Assembly (NCBI RefSeq): GCF_900172315.1
Contig: NZ_FWFV01000002.1
Span: 124,001-188,000, forward strand
Direction of reading: 5' to 3'
Length of the DNA stretch: 64,000 nt
From: Palleronia marisminoris
Lineage (GTDB): Bacteria > Pseudomonadota > Alphaproteobacteria > Rhodobacterales > Rhodobacteraceae
The position numbers and the translations under genes were made by a program. Below are positions 2,957 to 20,958 of this stretch, piece after piece. Each line of letters starts with the position of its first letter. The stretch's first letter is position 1. A model generated the notes under the pieces. The model worked only from the letters and a program-made list of their open reading frames with translations, made no database searches and was not told where the DNA came from.

Positions 2957-4262
2957 TCTCTGGGACGGCCTCTCGGTCGGCACGCAGGACATCCTGACCG
3001 CCATCGCCCTTGCCCTGCCGATCCTGATCGTGGGCTTCGTCATCCTGCGGGGCTTCGCGCCGTGGCCCCTGATCCGGGCACTGGCCGCACGGTTCCGCCT
3101 GCCCGTGGTGCTGTTCGTGCTGCTTGTGGCGGTTTCCGTCGGCACCGGCCTGGGCCTCGTCGCGCAGGAGCGAGCTCTGCGGCACGGCACCGCTCAGGCG
3201 GCCGACAAGTTCGACCTGGTGGTCGCAGCTCCGGGCTCCGAGATCACCATGCTGATGGCCGCGGTCTTCCTGCAGCCCTCGGACGTGCCGCTGGTCGACG
3301 GCCCCACCTTCGCCGAAGTCGCGAACGCCCGCGACGTGGACCTTGCCGCCCCGCTCGCCTTCGGGGACAGCGCCGACGGCGCGCCGGTGGTCGGCACCAT
3401 CGCCGACTTCGTGACCCACCTGACCGACGGCGGCATCGAAGGGCGCATGTGGCAGGAGACCAGCGAGGCCGTGGTCGGCGCCGCCTCGCCCTTCGCCATC
3501 GGCGACACGATCGTTCCTGCCCACGGGATCGGCGATGCGGTCGAGGAAGGAGCCCACGGCGACCTCAGCTACACTGTCATCGGCCGCATGGCCCCCACCG
3601 GCTCGCCTTGGGATCGCGCCGTGCTCGTCCCGGTCGAGGCGGTGTGGGAGGCGCACGGCCTCGCCCCCGGCCACGCGCCCGACAGCCCGACGCAGCTCGG
3701 CCCGCCTTTCGATCCCGACTACTTCCCCGGCACCCCGGCCATCGTGATCCGGGCCGAGAACCTCGCCGCGAACTACGGCCTGCGCGCGCAGTTCCAGGGC
3801 ACGGGCGAGACGATGGCCTTCTTTCCCGGCGCGGTGCTGTCGCAGCTCTACACGATCATGGGCGACGTGCGGCAGGCGATGTCGGTCCTGTCCATCGTCA
3901 GCCAGCTTCTGGTGGCGGCCTCTGTGCTGGTCGGGCTCTACCTGCTCGGCCGGCTGATCCGGCGGCAACTGGCGTTGCTGCGCGCGCTCGGGGCGCCGGC
4001 GCGCTTCGTCTTCGCGGTGGTCTGGGGGTTCGCCACCTCGATCCTCGTGACCGGCGCGATTCTGGGGATCGGGGTCGGCTACGGCGCGGCGGCGGTGCTG
4101 TCGCGGATCGTCAGCGAGCGGACGGACATCCTCGTCGAAGCCGGGATCGGCTGGACCGAGATCCACCTGGCGATCGGCTTCGCCTCGGCCGCCTCGATGG
4201 CCGCGCTGATCGGCGCATGGGGTGCGACACGCGTGGGGATCGTCGGCGCGCTGCGGGGGTAG
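2949..4262 (+). CDS. ABC transporter permease, FtsX-like
   Basis: A 437-residue inner-membrane permease. A transmembrane segment lies near residues 15-40 and another near 45-70, followed by a large periplasmic domain, then three C-terminal hydrophobic segments (about 310-430) with the FtsX/MacB-type motif SERTDIL. This is the MacB/LolC/ZrgC topology, used for extracting or moving substrates from the periplasmic side. The start at 2949 overlaps the ATPase stop; the next upstream ATG would lengthen the overlap. It probably works with the ATPase and the CPFC secreted protein. Substrate unknown. Confidence 0.85.
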   Translation: MRDLWDGLSVGTQDILTAIALALPILIVGFVILRGFAPWPLIRALAARFRLPVVLFVLLVAVSVGTGLGLVAQERALRHGTAQAADKFDLVVAAPGSEITMLMAAVFLQPSDVPLVDGPTFAEVANARDVDLAAPLAFGDSADGAPVVGTIADFVTHLTDGGIEGRMWQETSEAVVGAASPFAIGDTIVPAHGIGDAVEEGAHGDLSYTVIGRMAPTGSPWDRAVLVPVEAVWEAHGLAPGHAPDSPTQLGPPFDPDYFPGTPAIVIRAENLAANYGLRAQFQGTGETMAFFPGAVLSQLYTIMGDVRQAMSVLSIVSQLLVAASVLVGLYLLGRLIRRQLALLRALGAPARFVFAVVWGFATSILVTGAILGIGVGYGAAAVLSRIVSERTDILVEAGIGWTEIHLAIGFASAASMAALIGAWGATRVGIVGALRG

Positions 4263-4313
4263 TCAACCGCCGCGCCCCGCCCTAACCATGGCGCACACCA
4301 AGCGGAGGGGCAC

Positions 4314-4742
4314 ATGCCGACGATCTACCTTCTCAACGGGCCGAACCTGAACCTTCTGGGCAAGCGCCAGCCCGAGATCTACGGGTCCGAAACGCTCGAG
4401 GATGTCGAGCGCCTCTGCCGCGCCGCCCTCCCCGAGGGCTGGGACCTGCGCGCCCTCCAGTCCAACTGGGAGGGGCAGCTGATCGACTGGATCCACGAGG
4501 CCCGCGACCACGCCGCCGGCATCGTCATCAACCCCGGAGCGTTCACCCACACCTCCGTCGCGATCCTCGACGCGCTGAACGCCTACGAGGGGCCGGTGAT
4601 CGAGATCCACATCTCGAACGTCCACAAGCGGGAGTCGTTTCGGCACCACTCCTACGTGTCGTTGAGGGCGGATGGGGTGATCGCGGGGCTGGGTATTGAA
4701 GGGTACGTGGCCGGGGTGAGGCGGGTCTGCAGCACACGCTAG
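4314..4742 (+). CDS. aroQ: Type II 3-dehydroquinate dehydratase
   Basis: A 142-residue enzyme of the shikimate pathway, converting 3-dehydroquinate to 3-dehydroshikimate in the cytoplasm. Family motifs are [17 protein letters not shown] near the N terminus (active-site Tyr and Arg), [12 protein letters not shown] in the middle and [18 protein letters not shown] (catalytic His region). An AGCGGAGGGG ribosome site precedes the ATG. The C-terminal residues RRVCSTR look unlike the usual ending of the family, and the stop overlaps the stop of the converging abortive-infection-like gene by two bases of the codon; the end may have been reshaped by insertion of that gene. Confidence 0.95.
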
Positions 4743-5584
4743 TGCACCGCGATCTTTCGTCTATAACGACTTGATTCAATCAGAAACTCGCAGAACGCAA
4801 ATGTGAGACTGACCACAAGCTTCGCGTGATGAAGATTGGGGCTGTACTTGGCAGCGTGCCTGTCGCTCGCTTTGTTGGAAACTTCGTAGAAGCCTCCGAC
4901 GAGAGATGTGAGACCGCTGAGCAAAGGCTTAAGCACCGTGTCGGTTTGCTCCGACACCGCCAACCCTGCCGCGCTCGAATATTGCTTATATAGCTTTTTG
5001 ATATCTCCCTCACCTTCGCGGTACTCTTCGGATAGCTCATCCAAAGACAGCTTCAGGAAGGATTCAATCAGGGTATAGCAAATAGAAATAGCGCCCGCGT
5101 AGTCGGACTGGTCGATGCGCGAGTTCGCCTTGGATACATGTGCCCGCAAATTGTCGTTCCTGAGAAGGTAACCTGGCGGCGTCAGAATCCGCCCTTCTGT
5201 GGGAACAACTTCGAAGTAAACTGGGCCTTCCACGTACATGCCGTTGTGTATGAAGCCTTCCTGATAGTCTTTGCGCAGTTTAAAGCCGCTTGGCGCGAGC
5301 AGCCGGCTGAACTGGAAAGCATGATCCTCAATTTCTCTATCTGAATCTGCGCTCCAGTCAAATGCGGCCTCGATTATATTTTTAATCTTGGGAGTGGAAT
5401 TATAGTTCGCCAATCTTTCCCGCGCATACACATGTCGGGACGGGAAACCGTTCCCATACAAATCATCCGCGCCAAATCGGTTGAAAAAATCCACGAGCTG
5501 CGGACCCGACCTGTACGGCGACAGGCCGCTGTTCCCGGTGATATATCCCACAAGGAACTCTATCGCCTGCTCGGACAGGTTCAC
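4739..5584 (-). CDS. Abortive-infection (Abi_C-like) protein
   Basis: A 281-residue protein with a GTG start. The N terminus ([18 protein letters not shown], then YGNGFPSR) and the C terminus ([15 protein letters not shown], then a hydrophobic helix) match the layout of abortive infection family proteins with a C-terminal Abi_C domain (PF14355-type, HEPN-like helices with an R/N...H-type motif). Such proteins are linked to phage defence, often by RNA cleavage, but this is inferred. The GTG overlaps the thyX stop (GTGA) and the stop overlaps the aroQ stop. Base use is clearly AT-richer than neighbours: 26 of 60 bases are G/C in 5341-5400. This points to horizontal acquisition. Confidence 0.7.
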
Positions 5585-13187: not shown

Positions 13188-14672
13188 ATGTCGTCCGATC
13201 TGGTTATCGTCTACCATCGCCAGCCTTACGAAGAGGTTGAGGAAAACGGCCAAATCGTCAGGAAGGAGAACAAGAGCCCCAACGGCATCGTGCCGACGCT
13301 GAAAAGCTTCTTCCGGCGCGTGGACAAGGGGGCCTGGGTCGCCTGGAAGCTGTCGGAGACGCCGAACGAACCCGATTTCGACCGCGTGATCGAGATCGAG
13401 GACAGCTACGGCACCTACTCCGTCAGCCGCCTTCCCCTGACCGAGGCCCAGGTCAAGTCGTTCTACCACGTCACCTCGAAAGAGGCCTTCTGGCCGATCC
13501 TGCACTCCTTCAAGGAGAAGTACGACTACGACCCTGTCGACTGGCCGACCTTCCGCGAGGTGAACTGGGCCTTCGCCGAAGCCGCCGCGAACGAGGCGGC
13601 CGAGGGCGCCGTGGTCTGGGTCCACGACTACAACCTGTGGCTCGTGCCCGGCTACCTGCGCAAGATGCGGCCCGACCTCAGGATCAGCTTCTTCCACCAC
13701 ACGCCCTTCCCTTCGGCCGACATGTTCAACGTGCTGCCGTGGCGGCGCGAGATCATGGAAAGCCTCTTGTCCTGCGACGTGGTCGGCTTCCACATTCCCC
13801 GCTACGCGGCGAACTTCGTCGGCGTGGCCGAGAGCCTCTTCTCGATCGAGACCGGACCGCGTGAGCCCGTGAACCCCGATTTCGTCAAGGAATACGTGGC
13901 ACTGTCCGACCGGAAGGTCGCCCAGTGGGTCGAAAACGAGGGGCGCCGCGTACAGGTGCTTGCCTCGCCTGTCGGCGTGGACGTGGACTACATCGAGGGC
14001 AAGGCCGGCACCGAGGACACGCTTGCACGCGCCCAGCAGATCCGCACCGAGATGGGCGACGGCGCGATGATCCTGTCGGTCGGACGTACCGATTACACGA
14101 AGGGCGGTGCCGACCAGCTGATGTCCTTCGAGCGTATCCTCGCCGAGAATCCGGACCTTCACGGCAAGGTCAGGCTGATGCACGTCTCGGTCAGCGCCAA
14201 CCGCAACATGGCGGTCTACGAGAGCATCCAATCCGAGATCGAAGAATTCGTCGGCCGCATCAACGGCCGGTTCGGCACCTTCGACTGGACGCCCGTGACG
14301 CTGATGAGCCGCGCGATCCCGTTCGACGAGCTCGTGGCCTATTACCGCGCCGCCGACGTTTGCTGGATCACGCCGCTTGCCGACGGGATGAACCTGGTTG
14401 CCAAGGAGTTCGCCGCCTGCCGCGCCGACCTGCGCGGGGCGCTGGTACTATCCGAATTCGCCGGTGCCGCGATCGAGATGGGCTCGGCCGTGCTGGCCAA
14501 TCCCTTCTCGCACAAGTCCATGGACAGGGCGCTCCTGCAGGCGCTGAACATGGGCGAGGAAGAGCAGGAGAATCGCATGCGCGACATGCGTGACACGATC
14601 CGTAAATACGACATCAGGGCCTGGGCCGAGGATCAGATGGCCGGATTCTCGGGCATCGATGCTGCGCCGTGA
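13188..14672 (+). CDS. ggpS: Glucosylglycerol-phosphate synthase
   Basis: A 494-residue GT20-family retaining glycosyltransferase. Compared with trehalose-6-phosphate synthase it has the GgpS-style opening LVIVYHRQPYEEVEENG and NKSPNGIVPTLKSFF. Shared catalytic blocks are VWVHDYNLWLVPGYLRK, FFHHTPFPS, GRTDYTKG and PLADGMNLVAKEF. The reaction joins ADP-glucose to glycerol-3-phosphate, making 2-O-glucosylglycerol phosphate, a compatible solute precursor. An AGGAGGT ribosome site sets the start at 13188. Upstream genes supply the acceptor (gpsA) and the phosphatase, so the operon is functionally complete except for ADP-glucose supply. OtsA-type activity is less likely given the N terminus. Confidence 0.87.
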   Translation: MSSDLVIVYHRQPYEEVEENGQIVRKENKSPNGIVPTLKSFFRRVDKGAWVAWKLSETPNEPDFDRVIEIEDSYGTYSVSRLPLTEAQVKSFYHVTSKEAFWPILHSFKEKYDYDPVDWPTFREVNWAFAEAAANEAAEGAVVWVHDYNLWLVPGYLRKMRPDLRISFFHHTPFPSADMFNVLPWRREIMESLLSCDVVGFHIPRYAANFVGVAESLFSIETGPREPVNPDFVKEYVALSDRKVAQWVENEGRRVQVLASPVGVDVDYIEGKAGTEDTLARAQQIRTEMGDGAMILSVGRTDYTKGGADQLMSFERILAENPDLHGKVRLMHVSVSANRNMAVYESIQSEIEEFVGRINGRFGTFDWTPVTLMSRAIPFDELVAYYRAADVCWITPLADGMNLVAKEFAACRADLRGALVLSEFAGAAIEMGSAVLANPFSHKSMDRALLQALNMGEEEQENRMRDMRDTIRKYDIRAWAEDQMAGFSGIDAAP

Positions 14673-16781: not shown

Positions 16782-16802
16782 AACCCGATGAGCGGAGACG
16801 GT

Positions 16803-18209
16803 ATGAGTGGAGCAGATATCGGCCTGATCGGCCTGGGCACCATGGGTTCTGCCCTTGCGCTGAACATCGCGGAAAGCGGCTTCGACATTGCCGTCTACAA
16901 TCGCTCGGACGATGTGACACATGCCTTCGTGGAAGAGGCCGGAGATCTCGCCGAGCGCGTGACTCCGGCCTTCAGCCTGGAAGATTTGGTTGGAAAGCTG
17001 AGAAGCCCTCGCGCCATCATCCTGATGGTACCGGCCGGCGACATCGTCGACGACCAGATCGAGCGTCTCCGCCCCCTCATGAATCCCGAGGACATGGTGA
17101 TCGACGCCGGAAATGCGAACTTCCGCGATACGATCCGCCGGGCCAAGGCCGCGGCCGCCAAGGGCGAGAGCTTCCTTGGCATCGGCGTATCCGGTGGCGA
17201 AGAAGGTGCACGACATGGTCCCTCGATCATGGGGGGCGGCACGCCAGAGGCCTGGGACAGGGTAGAACATATCCTGAAGGCCATCGCGGCAGACCACCAA
17301 GGCACTGCCTGCGCGACCTATATGGGTCCCGATGGCGCGGGCCATTTCGTGAAGGCCGTTCACAACGGCATCGAATATGCCGACATGCAGATGATCGCGG
17401 AGATCTACGGCGTCCTGCGCGATGGATCCGGCCTCAGCTATGCCGAGATTGCTGCTCATTTCGAGCGTTGGAACAACGGCCCGCTGCAATCCTATCTTGT
17501 CGAGATTTCCGCCAAGGTCGCGGCGGCGATCGACGATCGGTCTGGTCAGCCACTGCTTTCGGTGATCGAGGACACGGCGGGGCAGAAGGGCACGGGCCGT
17601 TGGACTGCCATCGAAGCTCAGCACCTCGCCGCGCCCGTCAACGTCATCGAAGCTGCGGTGTCGGCCCGCAACATTTCGGCCCAGAAGGACGAGCGTGCCG
17701 CGGGCGAACAGCGTTTCGGCGCTGCGCCCCAGCATGTCGACATCGACGCGGAGACGCTGGAGCATGCTCTCGTGGCAGGCAAGATTCTGTGCTACGCGCA
17801 GGGTTTCGAGATGCTGCGGAAAGCGAGCGCCGAGTTCGGCTGGTCTCTACCTTTACCCGAGATCGCAAGAGTTTGGCGCGAAGGCTGCATCATTCGCTCG
17901 GCGATGCTCGACGACATGGCGATCGCACTGGAGGACGCCCCCGAAACACCTCTCCACCGCGCGCCGCCTTTCGCCGACCGGCTGGAGAGCGCCTTGCCGG
18001 CGCTTCGCAAAGCCGTCGTTGCCGCCCTCGGCAATGGCCACCCCGCGCCTGCACTCTCCGCTGCGTTGACCTATTTCGACGCGATCCGCACATCGCGCGG
18101 AACTGCCGACATGATCCAGGGCCAGCGAGACTTTTTCGGGTGGCACGGCTTTGCTCGCCTCGACGACGAGGGGCGCGATCATCACGGCCCGTGGGTGACG
18201 TCAAACTGA
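16803..18209 (+). CDS. gnd: 6-phosphogluconate dehydrogenase (decarboxylating)
   Basis: A 468-residue enzyme of the oxidative pentose phosphate pathway, converting 6-phosphogluconate to ribulose-5-phosphate, CO2 and NAD(P)H. The nucleotide site is IGLIGLGTMGSALALNIAE, the substrate region GVSGGEEGARHGPSIMGGG and KAVHNGIEYADMQMI. Length matches the decarboxylating long form. The start at 16803 has GGAGA upstream; an in-frame ATG at 16788 lies against the inverted repeat and lacks a site. It stands alone, with a different function from both neighbours. Confidence 0.93.
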   Translation: MSGADIGLIGLGTMGSALALNIAESGFDIAVYNRSDDVTHAFVEEAGDLAERVTPAFSLEDLVGKLRSPRAIILMVPAGDIVDDQIERLRPLMNPEDMVIDAGNANFRDTIRRAKAAAAKGESFLGIGVSGGEEGARHGPSIMGGGTPEAWDRVEHILKAIAADHQGTACATYMGPDGAGHFVKAVHNGIEYADMQMIAEIYGVLRDGSGLSYAEIAAHFERWNNGPLQSYLVEISAKVAAAIDDRSGQPLLSVIEDTAGQKGTGRWTAIEAQHLAAPVNVIEAAVSARNISAQKDERAAGEQRFGAAPQHVDIDAETLEHALVAGKILCYAQGFEMLRKASAEFGWSLPLPEIARVWREGCIIRSAMLDDMAIALEDAPETPLHRAPPFADRLESALPALRKAVVAALGNGHPAPALSAALTYFDAIRTSRGTADMIQGQRDFFGWHGFARLDDEGRDHHGPWVTSN

Positions 18210-18286
18210 AGCCTGGGCGGCGACACCGCGGGGCTGTGATGTCGCACCCCCTAGCCCTCGAAAGCTCAAGAACATAATGTGAACGC

Positions 18287-19522
18287 ATGACGCGTTTCAC
18301 ACTCGAGCAAAAGCTGGCGGTCCTGTCGGATGCAGCCAAATATGACGCCTCCTGTGCGTCCTCCGGAACATCGAGACGCCATTCCCGCGCGGGCGATGGA
18401 CTGGGCTCGACTGAGGGCTCGGGGATCTGCCATGCCTACGCGCCGGACGGACGTTGCATCAGCCTGTTGAAGATTCTGCTGACGAACTTCTGCATCTACG
18501 ACTGCGCCTATTGCGTGAACCGCGTGAGTTCAAACGTGACCCGCGCCCGCTTCACCGTGGACGAGGTCGTGACCCTCACGCTCGAATTCTACCGGCGCAA
18601 CTATATCGAGGGGTTGTTCCTGTCGTCGGGCATCATCCGGTCGCCCGATGACACCATGGGCGAGATGGTCGAGATCGCTCGCAAGCTGCGCCACGACCAC
18701 CGCTTCCGCGGCTACATCCATCTCAAGACCATCCCAGACGCCGACCCTGCACTCATCGAGGAAGCCGGCCTTCTTGCAGACCGGATCTCGATCAACGTCG
18801 AGCTTCCGACCGATGCCAGCGTCCGGACCTACGCCCCCGAAAAGAAGCCGGAGACCATTCGCAAGGCCATGGCTGACGTCCGCCTTCGGACGGAGGCGGC
18901 GAGCGACCGGACGCATACCGGCCGACGCGCGCCACGCTTCGCTCCGGCCGGGCAATCGACCCAAATGATCGTGGGCGCGGACGAAGCGAACGACGCCACC
19001 ATCCTCGGGCAGTCCACCCGCCTCTATTCCAGCTACAAGCTCAAACGCGTCTACTATTCGGCGTTCTCGCCCATTCCCGATGCCACCGCGAAACTGCCGC
19101 TTGTGAAGCCGCCGCTCGCGCGTGAGCATCGGCTGTATCAGGCGGACTGGCTCCTCCGGTTCTACGGCTTCAACCTCGACGAGATCACCGGCGCGACCGA
19201 AGGCGGTAACCTCGACCTCGAAATCGATCCCAAGCTGGCTTGGGCACTGCAGAATCGCCACCTGTTCCCGATCGACGTGAACCGAGCCGAGCGCGACATG
19301 CTCCTGCGGGTGCCCGGATTCGGGACGAAGACCGTCGACCGCATCCTCGCCACCCGACGACACCGGACCCTGCGTTACGAAGACCTGGCGCGCATGGGCG
19401 CCAGCCTGAAAAAGGCGCGCGCCTTCATCACCACCATCGGATGGCAGCCGGGCGCCCTGACGGACAGCGCCGATCTGCGCGCGCGATTTGCCCCCGCTCC
19501 GGAACAGCTTACGCTCTTTTGA
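18287..19522 (+). CDS. Putative DNA modification/repair radical SAM protein
   Basis: A 411-residue radical SAM enzyme of the group linked to uracil-DNA glycosylase-like proteins (TIGR03916 type). The iron-sulfur motif CxxxCxxC is seen as CIYDCAYC near residue 68, preceded by SLLKILLTNF. Other family features are YIEGLFLSSGIIRSPDDTM, the AGQSTQMIVGAD block and a C-terminal helix-hairpin-helix (MLLRVPGFGTKTVDRIL, about residues 345-361) that suggests DNA contact. The stop overlaps the start of the DUF4130-UdgX gene by one base (TGATG). The chemistry it performs is unknown. Confidence 0.87.
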   Translation: MTRFTLEQKLAVLSDAAKYDASCASSGTSRRHSRAGDGLGSTEGSGICHAYAPDGRCISLLKILLTNFCIYDCAYCVNRVSSNVTRARFTVDEVVTLTLEFYRRNYIEGLFLSSGIIRSPDDTMGEMVEIARKLRHDHRFRGYIHLKTIPDADPALIEEAGLLADRISINVELPTDASVRTYAPEKKPETIRKAMADVRLRTEAASDRTHTGRRAPRFAPAGQSTQMIVGADEANDATILGQSTRLYSSYKLKRVYYSAFSPIPDATAKLPLVKPPLAREHRLYQADWLLRFYGFNLDEITGATEGGNLDLEIDPKLAWALQNRHLFPIDVNRAERDMLLRVPGFGTKTVDRILATRRHRTLRYEDLARMGASLKKARAFITTIGWQPGALTDSADLRARFAPAPEQLTLF

Positions 19523-20958
19523 TGCGTACGGTGGCCCTGTCCGAAATAGGAACCGACAAGGCCTGGCGCGTTGCGGCGCGCGGCCTACTGGCGGAAGGCG
19601 TCCGTCCCGAAGATGTGCTATGGCAATATGGCGCGGTTGAGAGCGATCTTTTCGCCACCGCCCCCGCAACCCCGTCCGGCACCGCCCTGCGCGTCCCTCG
19701 TGCCTTCGTCGACTTGGCCGGAACCGTCTGCTGGCACGTCGACCCCGAGCGCTTCGCACGGCTCTACGCGCTGCTTTGGCGGCTCATGGGCACGCCTGGC
19801 CTGATGACCGACCGCGGCGACGTACGCGTGAAGACGCTCTTCGAGATGGAGAAATCCGTCCGCCGCGACATGCACAAGATGAAGGCTTTTCTACGTTTCC
19901 GGGAGATTGATGCTGCTGGGCCGCGCCGCCGCTTCGCCGCGTGGTTCGAACCGCAGCATCACATCGTCGAGCCGCTGGCGCCCTTCTTCGCCCGTCGCTT
20001 CGGCGACATGGACTGGATCATCGCGACGCCTAACCGCACCGTGCATTTCACGGACGGCCAGATCGCCCTTGCCCCCGGTCAGCCGAAACCGGCCCTGCCC
20101 GATGATGCCGCCGAACAGCTCTGGACCACCTATTTCAGGAACATTTTCAATCCGGCGCGCCTGAAGGTGAAGGCCATGCAGGCGGAGATGCCCAAGAAGT
20201 ACTGGAAGAACATGCCCGAAGCCGCGGCAATTCCCGACATGATCGCCAGCGCCGAGGACAGGGCGAGACAGATGCAGCTCGCGGCTCCCACGCTGGCGCC
20301 GAGGCGGGCCGGCAAGATCACGGAGCGTTTGAGCATGACCGCGACGGACACACCTTCCCCGGGCAGCCTCGATGCGCTGCGCCACGACGCCGCGGCGTGC
20401 ACCCGCTGTCCGCTGCACCAGAGCGCCACGCAGGTCGTGGTGGGCGAAGGTCCCCGGAACGCACCGCTCATGGTGGTTGGCGAGCAGCCGGGCGACCAGG
20501 AGGATCTCTCGGGCCGCCCCTTCGTCGGCCCGGCCGGGCAGCTTTTCGATCGGCTGGCCGAGGAGGCCGGCCTCGACCGCGACGCCGCCTTCGTCACGAA
20601 CGCGGTCAAGCACTTCAAATTCCAGCCCCGCGGCAAGCGGCGCATCCACCAGAAGCCCGACGCCGGCGAAGTTCAGGCGTGCCGGTGGTGGCTCGAGGCC
20701 GAACGCGCGCTCGTCAAGCCGAAGCTCATCCTCGCCATGGGCGCGACCGCTGCCCTGTCCCTGACCGGCAATGGCGACGGCATCATGAAGCGCCACGGTA
20801 CCTTCGAGGCGACCGAGGACGGCACGCCGGTCCTTCTGACCCTTCACCCGTCCTACCTGTTGCGCGTGCCGAACGCCGCCGCGAAGGCAGCAGCCGAGCA
20901 GGACTTCCGCGCCGATCTTGCCCTCGCCGCCGACTGGATCGCGCGGAACGCCGCCTGA
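19522..20958 (+). CDS. udgX: DUF4130-UdgX fusion: uracil-DNA binding/glycosylase protein
   Basis: A 478-residue two-part protein. Residues 1 to about 250 are a DUF4130 (TIGR03915-type) domain; about 280-478 is a family-4-like uracil-DNA glycosylase domain. Visible are GEQPGDQED (320-328), HPSYLL (442-447) and the KRRIH motif at 372-376, which in UdgX carries the His that bonds covalently to the abasic site after uracil removal. Iron-sulfur ligands are probably Cys293, Cys296, Cys387 and His363, the last replacing a Cys of ordinary family-4 enzymes. It partners the radical SAM gene just upstream. Confidence 0.88.
   Translation: MRTVALSEIGTDKAWRVAARGLLAEGVRPEDVLWQYGAVESDLFATAPATPSGTALRVPRAFVDLAGTVCWHVDPERFARLYALLWRLMGTPGLMTDRGDVRVKTLFEMEKSVRRDMHKMKAFLRFREIDAAGPRRRFAAWFEPQHHIVEPLAPFFARRFGDMDWIIATPNRTVHFTDGQIALAPGQPKPALPDDAAEQLWTTYFRNIFNPARLKVKAMQAEMPKKYWKNMPEAAAIPDMIASAEDRARQMQLAAPTLAPRRAGKITERLSMTATDTPSPGSLDALRHDAAACTRCPLHQSATQVVVGEGPRNAPLMVVGEQPGDQEDLSGRPFVGPAGQLFDRLAEEAGLDRDAAFVTNAVKHFKFQPRGKRRIHQKPDAGEVQACRWWLEAERALVKPKLILAMGATAALSLTGNGDGIMKRHGTFEATEDGTPVLLTLHPSYLLRVPNAAAKAAAEQDFRADLALAADWIARNAA

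Follow-up and report, generated by a model that had tools for sequence, protein, structure and literature searches.

A LexA-type box, a clamp-type tail and an optional UdgX domain in a radical SAM-DUF4130 operon, a possible SOS-induced DNA repair system

The stretch of DNA analysed here, 64,000 nucleotides from the alphaproteobacterium Palleronia marisminoris (contig NZ_FWFV01000002.1, positions 124,001 to 188,000; hereafter the window), contains a two-gene operon that we propose to be an SOS-induced system in which a radical S-adenosylmethionine (SAM) protein docked on the sliding clamp would repair DNA lesions together with DUF4130, with the uracil-DNA glycosylase UdgX serving as an accessory anchor; we give this proposal as a whole an even chance of being right. 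The first gene (18287..19522, + strand) encodes a radical SAM protein of 411 amino acids belonging to TIGR03916 (rSAM_link_UDG; presumably the same family as COG4277), which it matches over model positions 1-388 of 415 with 582.6 bits against a cut-off of 343.5. The second gene (19522..20958, +), recognised as an open reading frame (ORF) and by NCBIfam and Pfam, encodes a DUF4130-UdgX fusion of 478 amino acids. Stop and start codon are merged in TGATG (19520..19524, +): the junction reads ...CTTTTGATGCG, and TGA (19520-19522) and ATG (19522-19524) have one base in common, so that both ORFs and their one-base overlap stand as described in the initial annotation of this DNA. Radical_SAM, DUF4130 and UDG each exceed their cut-offs in a Pfam scan. 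The operon is a typical representative of a family that is already known but biochemically uncharacterised, and that is taken here to be the putative base excision repair operon COG1573-COG4277, with which the TIGR03916/TIGR03915/TIGR03914 operon shares gene pairing and SOS control as far as the available part of the source goes (PMC8565304). Beyond what had been annotated initially, we describe a LexA-type box (18270-18284), a C-terminal QLTLF motif (residues 407-411) and a conserved set of residues, C23/C48/H49/C57, in the radical SAM protein.

The scheme that we envisage begins with cleavage of LexA, upon which both proteins would be made from one transcript, as the box and the gene overlap suggest. 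The radical SAM protein would dock on the clamp DnaN through its C-terminal QLTLF and engage DNA through a helix-hairpin-helix, while DUF4130, its regular partner, would probably act as a lesion- or DNA-presenting subunit, and the 5'-deoxyadenosyl radical might then reverse or modify a blocking DNA lesion near the fork. UdgX is expected from its conserved residues to excise uracil and to bond covalently to the abasic site, both of which are known for Mycobacterium smegmatis UdgX, and the bonded protein would keep the complex attached to DNA or protect the site, and would not serve as the source of the radical enzyme's substrate. The system would thus operate much like a clamp-coupled repair factor, its UdgX part resembling an abasic-site shield such as HMCES. 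Radical SAM DNA repair is known chiefly from spore photoproduct lyase (SPL); if the scheme is true, the present operons would represent a second, wider radical repair family tied to the clamp and to the SOS response, and radical repair would belong to the bacterial damage response in general. The clamp motif, the SOS box and the optional UdgX also sharpen the vague label of "DNA modification/repair" into a testable form.

The operon was compared with several sets of sequences. Our main set of relatives comprises the best 80 of 585 candidate loci from a contig search, and all counts among "80 relatives" refer to it; a further set comprises 34 loci, of which 33 were located (all but L177). A distant set of 11 loci spans Bacteroidota, Bacillota, Gammaproteobacteria, Betaproteobacteria, Gemmatimonadota, Azospirillum and gut contigs labelled as phage; one more locus that was opened, L119, was left out of the scripted analysis of this set. 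Gene occurrence was counted in a phylum sample of 299 Pseudomonadota genomes, with loci retrieved for 30 of its 53 radical SAM matches, and in a class sample of 142 genomes. Conservation in the radical SAM protein was read from an 81-row alignment of close relatives (A5), from which L050 with its frame-shifted radical SAM gene was left out, and from a diverse alignment of 13 rows (A2); a further alignment (A4) leaves out L050, L078 and L029, the start of the last being uncertain.

The putative SOS control is indicated by an exact match (18270..18284, +) to GAAC-N7-GAAC, a direct repeat that we take to be the consensus LexA site of alphaproteobacteria; the box, GAACATAATGTGAAC, ends 2 bases 5' of the radical SAM start codon. 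The window contains one exact match to this repeat against 1.97 expected, which is not significant by itself, and the case for the box therefore rests on position and conservation. Across the genome, 114 such sites occur against 59 for a reversed control pattern. In 77 of the 80 relatives, an exact box on either strand is located between -80 and +15 relative to the radical SAM start, and the upstream sequences of the other three (L046, L064 and L104) are one base off; altogether, the 1.0 Mb of the 80 loci holds 78 boxes within the -80..0 windows and 24 elsewhere. LexA-type sites, belonging to any of four kinds, were likewise found in 31 of the 33 further loci, no more than about 150 bases ahead of a conserved N-terminal anchor. 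The CTGT-N8-ACAG type occurs some 20 and 33 bases upstream in two betaproteobacterial relatives, a pair of GAAC-N4-GTTC sites (at -200 and -171) is present in the clostridial locus L109, and the alphaproteobacterial type recurs in the Azospirillum locus L115. SOS control of this type of operon is already known in print, having been reported for a COG1573-COG4277 operon of Bacteroidetes with Verrucomicrobia and Alphaproteobacteria cited (PMC8565304, available part), and the boxes found here agree with it. As a separate observation on the same region, positions 18274-18286 offer no room for a Shine-Dalgarno site between the LexA box and the ATG, and the spacer of the box resembles, by eye, a -10 element; the operon mRNA may be leaderless.

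The same control would also suit a system in which the pair, instead of repairing DNA, modifies bases, for example thymine or cytosine, and thereby drives or directs SOS mutagenesis, while UdgX acts on the product of deamination. Docking on the clamp would place the enzyme where SOS polymerases work, and DUF4130 has been predicted to be mutagenesis-related and linked to SplB-like radical SAM proteins and uracil glycosylases, "which might modify thymines" (PMC3765255, in its available part). Against this, no polymerase occurs among the neighbour genes, which code for 6-phosphogluconate dehydrogenase upstream and acylphosphatase downstream, and the UdgX-free versions of the operon described below have no fused glycosylase; we thus consider this alternative unlikely as formulated. 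In general terms, the reaction may serve either repair or mutagenesis, the modification of thymine being among the candidate reactions (PMC3765255).

The distribution of the three components is informative as to which of them form the centre of the system. In the phylum sample, TIGR03916 was found in 53 genomes, TIGR03915 (DUF4130) in 57 (56 above cut-off) and UdgX in 52 above cut-off. All 53 genomes with the radical SAM gene also have DUF4130, as against 40 with UdgX and 13 without it, and 12 of the 52 UdgX genomes have no radical SAM gene. The class sample contains, above cut-off, seven radical SAM, six DUF4130 and 12 UdgX matches, and G045, the one radical SAM match there that lacks DUF4130, stops close to the end of its contig. 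A readable DUF4130 gene adjoins the radical SAM gene in 78 of the 80 relatives (not in L050 and L078); 68 of these neighbours have UdgX with an intact GE-x-PG motif (truncated or altered close to the C-terminus in two of them, L062 and L097), a UdgX domain is absent from nine, and that of L068 is degenerate. UdgX was not detected anywhere in the genome, at E <= 1e-50, in any of the nine genomes with a UdgX-free DUF4130, the completeness of these genomes not being stated. Mapped onto a radical SAM tree of 84 rows (L050, L062 and L078 left out; several distant rows long-branched), the state of UdgX changed at least seven times including L068 and at least six times without it, with one change setting apart L108-L111, the four loci of Bacteroidota, Bacillota and Acinetobacter. 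In the loci of Spirosoma, Pusillibacter and Acinetobacter the annotation shows the pair without UdgX, and the ORF that follows in Acetoanaerobium encodes a DUF4130 protein without UdgX motifs. Because the radical SAM-DUF4130 combination is so constant and UdgX-free genomes exist, we conclude from these sequence comparisons that the pair is the functional core, UdgX being an optional addition seen, among the loci of stated class, in those of alpha- and betaproteobacteria. Evidence for the dispensability of UdgX appears to be new within the literature searched. That the two genes are coupled and have to do with DNA damage, both put forward in the initial annotation, is supported by the overlap, the LexA-type box and the presence of DUF4130 in every radical SAM genome of the phylum sample. 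It may be mentioned in the same context that UdgX of G185, G189 and G203, all from the phylum sample, has a full DUF4130 linker in genomes where the radical SAM gene is absent, and that G203 retains a 50-position DUF4130 fragment with a stop; these look like remnants of fusions.

The UdgX-free pairs bear directly on the idea, likewise proposed initially, that UdgX caps uracil-derived abasic sites and that the radical SAM protein releases, repairs or edits the resulting UdgX-DNA adduct. It is true that UdgX is fused to the very partner of the radical SAM protein, that the genes overlap and that every one of the 68 fused proteins whose motif A is intact retains the cross-linking His. The pair, however, persists where there is no UdgX to be processed, both in the nine UdgX-free genomes and in the 13 of the phylum sample, and it does so without a fused UdgX in the Spirosoma, Pusillibacter and Acinetobacter loci; moreover, UdgX occurs without the radical SAM gene in the 12 genomes mentioned above, and L068 has kept the operon with a UdgX that no longer has motif A or the His. 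The idea is thereby weakened, to the point that we regard it as very unlikely.

The scheme of a clamp-docked repair enzyme draws on the C-terminus of the radical SAM protein, which reads ...PEQLTLF. Its last five residues (407-411; 19505..19519, +), recognised by motif match and conservation, correspond to the bacterial clamp-binding motif, given as QL[S/D]LF or more loosely QxxLF, and a C-terminal QLSLF is found in Bacillus subtilis PolC (PMC12309361, available part). Q407 and L410 are invariant in the 81 rows of A5, position 408 is L in 72 and M in nine, and position 411 is F in 51, L in 24, I in five and A in one; Q407 and L408 are kept in all 13 rows of A2. We compared this with 1838 mechanically derived six-frame ORFs of at least 150 amino acids from the 80 loci, many of them not genes, asking for the pattern Q[LM]x[LIM][FLI] followed by at most three further residues at the ORF end. 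Of the 79 ORFs in which it was found, 78 encode the radical SAM protein and one is the shifted end of that gene in L050, so no ORF other than radical SAM among the 1838 ends in the pattern; the remaining relative, L106, ends in a six-residue form, QLSLAL. The further loci show the scripted pattern in 31 of 33 cases, the other two having QGSLF (L172) and a gene truncated by the contig end (L007). A QL motif is present in all 11 distant loci, with 0 to 34 residues following the five-mer: QLSLF, QLSLFD, QLSLGF, QLSIFD, QLSLWD, QLSLI, QLSLL, QLSLF, QLSMF, QLSFF and QLRFDF, in locus order; the identity of the distant proteins to that of the window goes down to 36% (alignment without L115). The linker that precedes the motif varies in both length and sequence among the relatives. 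In the AlphaFold2 model, QLTLF lies in blocks with predicted local distance difference test (pLDDT) values of 62 and 38, residues 409-411 being among the few below 50, and such low confidence of the tail fits a docking peptide. Taken together, the tail has the signature of a conserved docking peptide for the sliding clamp, to which the protein would be predicted to bind. Nothing joining this radical SAM family with the clamp was found in the open-licence literature of PubMed Central, including the available parts of PMC3765255 and PMC12309361, and the clamp tail appears to be new within the literature searched.

A motif match alone is, of course, not equal to binding, and QLxLF might be coincidental or serve another contact, leaving an SOS-regulated base excision operon without clamp coupling; L and I at the last position, and a motif that is not at the very end of the protein in four distant loci, would be in line with this. 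This alternative is very unlikely in our view, given that a variable tail ends in an extremely conserved motif that is absent from other ORFs of the 80 loci, and that five- and six-residue forms (QLSLF, QLSLAF, QLSLGF, QLGFGF) interchange, QLSLPL being in use as a tight-binding clamp peptide (PMC12309361, available part).

As concerns the rest of the radical SAM protein, its AlphaFold2 model has a mean pLDDT of 84.2, and the CX3CX2C cluster motif, CIYDCAYC as read from the sequence (residues 69-76; 18491..18514, +), has three Cys that do not vary in any row of A5 (81 of 81) or A2 (13 of 13). Alignment conservation singles out another stretch (18353..18457, +) with Cys23, Cys48, His49 and Cys57, all kept in 81 of 81 and 12 of 13 rows, respectively. 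This suggests a possible second metal site, and the extra Cys/His set appears to be new within the literature searched. The single row of A2 without the set is the Gemmatirosa outlier, whose next ORF is not DUF4130. This relative (L112, on a plasmid, about 3992-5260; 36% alignment identity) keeps the cluster motif, has QLSLW 21 residues before its end, and possibly represents a sister family. A helix-hairpin-helix region is placed by profile matches at residues about 325-380 (19259..19426, +), the profile of 13 sequences matching a ComEA-type structure with E 7e-5 over profile positions 319-374 and RuvA structures more weakly. Among the matches listed, the best 50 of 1259, the fold resembles radical SAM enzymes of a general kind, namely MgmA, biotin synthase, MiaB, HydG, HydE and RimO.

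DUF4130 (TIGR03915; residues 10-234; 19549..20223, +) is assigned by NCBIfam with 210.1 bits against a cut-off of 112.25, and AlphaFold2 yields a confident model for residues 1-235 (mean pLDDT 86.6). R125, F126, P144, F156, R159, I167, R213 and P224 do not vary among 16 diverse rows, and the most conserved acid, E143, is found in 13 of the 16; since Arg, aromatic residues and Pro are conserved without an invariant acid, a binding or presenting role would fit DUF4130 better than that of a hydrolase. A low-confidence loop contains SDLF (residues 41-44; 19642..19653, +) with a conserved LF pair: among 78 rows, L43 is kept in 75 and F44 in 70, the loop being otherwise variable. A kinship with DHH/DHHA1 proteins was considered and is rejected for now. 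Thirteen of the best 50 PDB matches listed by Foldseek look DHH-like, with a best E of 0.015 and with 8a8k_B at a probability of 0.89 and E 0.14, and a library of viral structures leans similarly; these matches are weak, and hhalign gives a probability of 0.2 against 14 DHHA1 stretches (L193 left out of that alignment). Many radical SAM enzymes act on proteins, but we consider it most improbable that the present one modifies DUF4130, the clamp or a polymerase instead of DNA, as the helix-hairpin-helix, the SOS box and the UDG fusion all point to DNA, even though MgmA and the likewise protein-modifying RimO are among the nearest folds and the flexible DUF4130 loop has its conserved LF pair. The reactions of both the radical SAM protein and DUF4130, stated in the initial annotation not to be known, still are not in the searchable literature.

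The UdgX region (TIGR03914; residues 236-468; 20227..20925, +) is supported by NCBIfam (329.8 bits, cut-off 189.95) and by structure matches, its closest solved relatives being UdgX structures, from 3.9e-49. Its motif A, GEQPG, with the UdgX-type Gln (residue 320; 20479..20493, +), follows the definition in PMC10359453, according to which 6AIL and 6IO9 are M. smegmatis UdgX (available part). The R-loop KRRIH occupies residues 372-376 as read from the sequence (20635..20649, +), which confirms the earlier placement of the cross-linking His at residue 376, and motif B, HPS, at residue 442 completes the motif set. All 68 fused relatives whose motif A is intact retain R-[ILMV]-H, as read by script for 63 and by eye for five. 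The UdgX of the window thus looks competent to cross-link, judging from these residues. The fused gene of Acetobacter nitrogenifigens (L068, 6930-8360) has TDQPG for GEQPG and GRRIP for KRRIH, with HPS missing, and looks like a dead UdgX retained in the operon.

Several results weigh against the scheme of an SOS-induced, clamp-docked pair. As to sampling, the 80 relatives are all alphaproteobacterial and mutually non-independent, and the 11 distant loci were picked by hand, 12 having been opened out of 168 matching plasmid and phage records. DUF4130 occurs without the radical SAM gene in four of 57 genomes (G203, G330, G346 and G415). None of the four box types was detected by script in seven of the 11 distant loci (L108, L110, L111, L112, L116, L117 and L118), although visual inspection shows near-match boxes in two of these, L111 and L117. 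Among the 33 further loci, L152 and L172 have no box either. In L111, L112, L116 and L117, 15 to 34 residues follow the clamp motif, and QLRFDF of L118 is far from the clamp consensus. The helix-hairpin-helix that had been annotated initially is found with the 13-sequence profile; the single protein stays below the Pfam cut-off (18.1 and 18.5 against 27), and the 81-sequence profile of close relatives matches the ComEA-type structure weakly (0.064). For DUF4130, no relative of known function was found: there is no PDB fold match at E <= 0.001 and no further Pfam family common to its members. The SDLF loop is a doubtful candidate for a second clamp motif, being only partly clamp-like and having the full QxxLF in just five of 78 rows. 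A broader version of the proposal, namely a multi-phylum family of clamp-docked radical SAM proteins whose 5'-deoxyadenosyl radical would act on a lesion at the fork during the SOS response together with DUF4130, possibly with a second iron-sulfur cluster at Cys23/Cys48/Cys57, and that would be pinned to uracil sites by covalently bound UdgX in some lineages, is put forward tentatively, with somewhat less than even confidence.

It remains to compare the operon with better-known systems. The COG1573-COG4277 operon has been called uracil-glycosylase-based (PMC8565304), whereas UdgX is optional here and the radical SAM protein and DUF4130 are constant; the available part of that paper says nothing of a clamp motif or of the additional Cys/His set. 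With M. smegmatis UdgX the fusion protein has GEQPG, KRRIH and HPS in common (PMC10359453, PMC10776899, available parts); the mycobacterial protein has about 210 residues as studied, whereas the UdgX of the window forms part of a fusion with DUF4130 whose gene follows that of a radical SAM protein. SplB resembles the first protein in being a radical SAM enzyme tied to DNA damage, and proteins linked to DUF4130 have been called SplB-like (PMC3765255, available part), but the protein of the window has in addition the helix-hairpin-helix, the clamp motif and the Cys/His set, and SplB (COG1533) is listed apart from COG4277 in the available part of PMC8565304. An SplB-like enzyme is, indeed, not supported: no SPL model was matched at E <= 0.001 in an NCBIfam scan of the window protein, and no SPL chain was found at E <= 10 with the family profiles (29 matches) or among the best 50 of 1259 fold matches. 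One SPL family searched for in 115 genomes gave nothing at E <= 1e-20, and hence no sequences for comparison. HMCES/YedK (SRAP) proteins shield abasic sites covalently via Cys2, and the human protein has a clamp (PCNA) motif; the likeness lies in the covalent capping and the clamp motif, whereas UdgX is a glycosylase using His rather than Cys2, and a radical enzyme is encoded in the same operon. The fusion protein is not recognised as a relative of HMCES, the SRAP domain being missing from the Pfam matches of the window proteins up to E 1. A defence system was rejected as well, no PADLOC model being matched at E <= 0.1. The same applies to a phage origin: a relative is encoded in two of 32 viral-contig stretches with the pattern, and ten phage-labelled records were matched, of which four were opened, one having chromosomal housekeeping genes and three being unannotated. 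In L119, a 240-kb "Acinetobacter phage MD-2021a", and in L110, an A. baumannii "plasmid", the pair is flanked by glyQ, glyS and other housekeeping genes, and both records look like mislabelled chromosomal DNA.

Directly upstream of the operon in the window (16788-18209) is a gene for NADP-dependent 6-phosphogluconate dehydrogenase, for which we know of no link to the operon, and an acylphosphatase gene follows downstream. Farther away, the gene at 13188-14669 encodes glucosylglycerol-phosphate synthase (TIGR02398, 665.9 bits), an enzyme leading to a compatible solute of salt-tolerant bacteria, and not trehalose-phosphate synthase.

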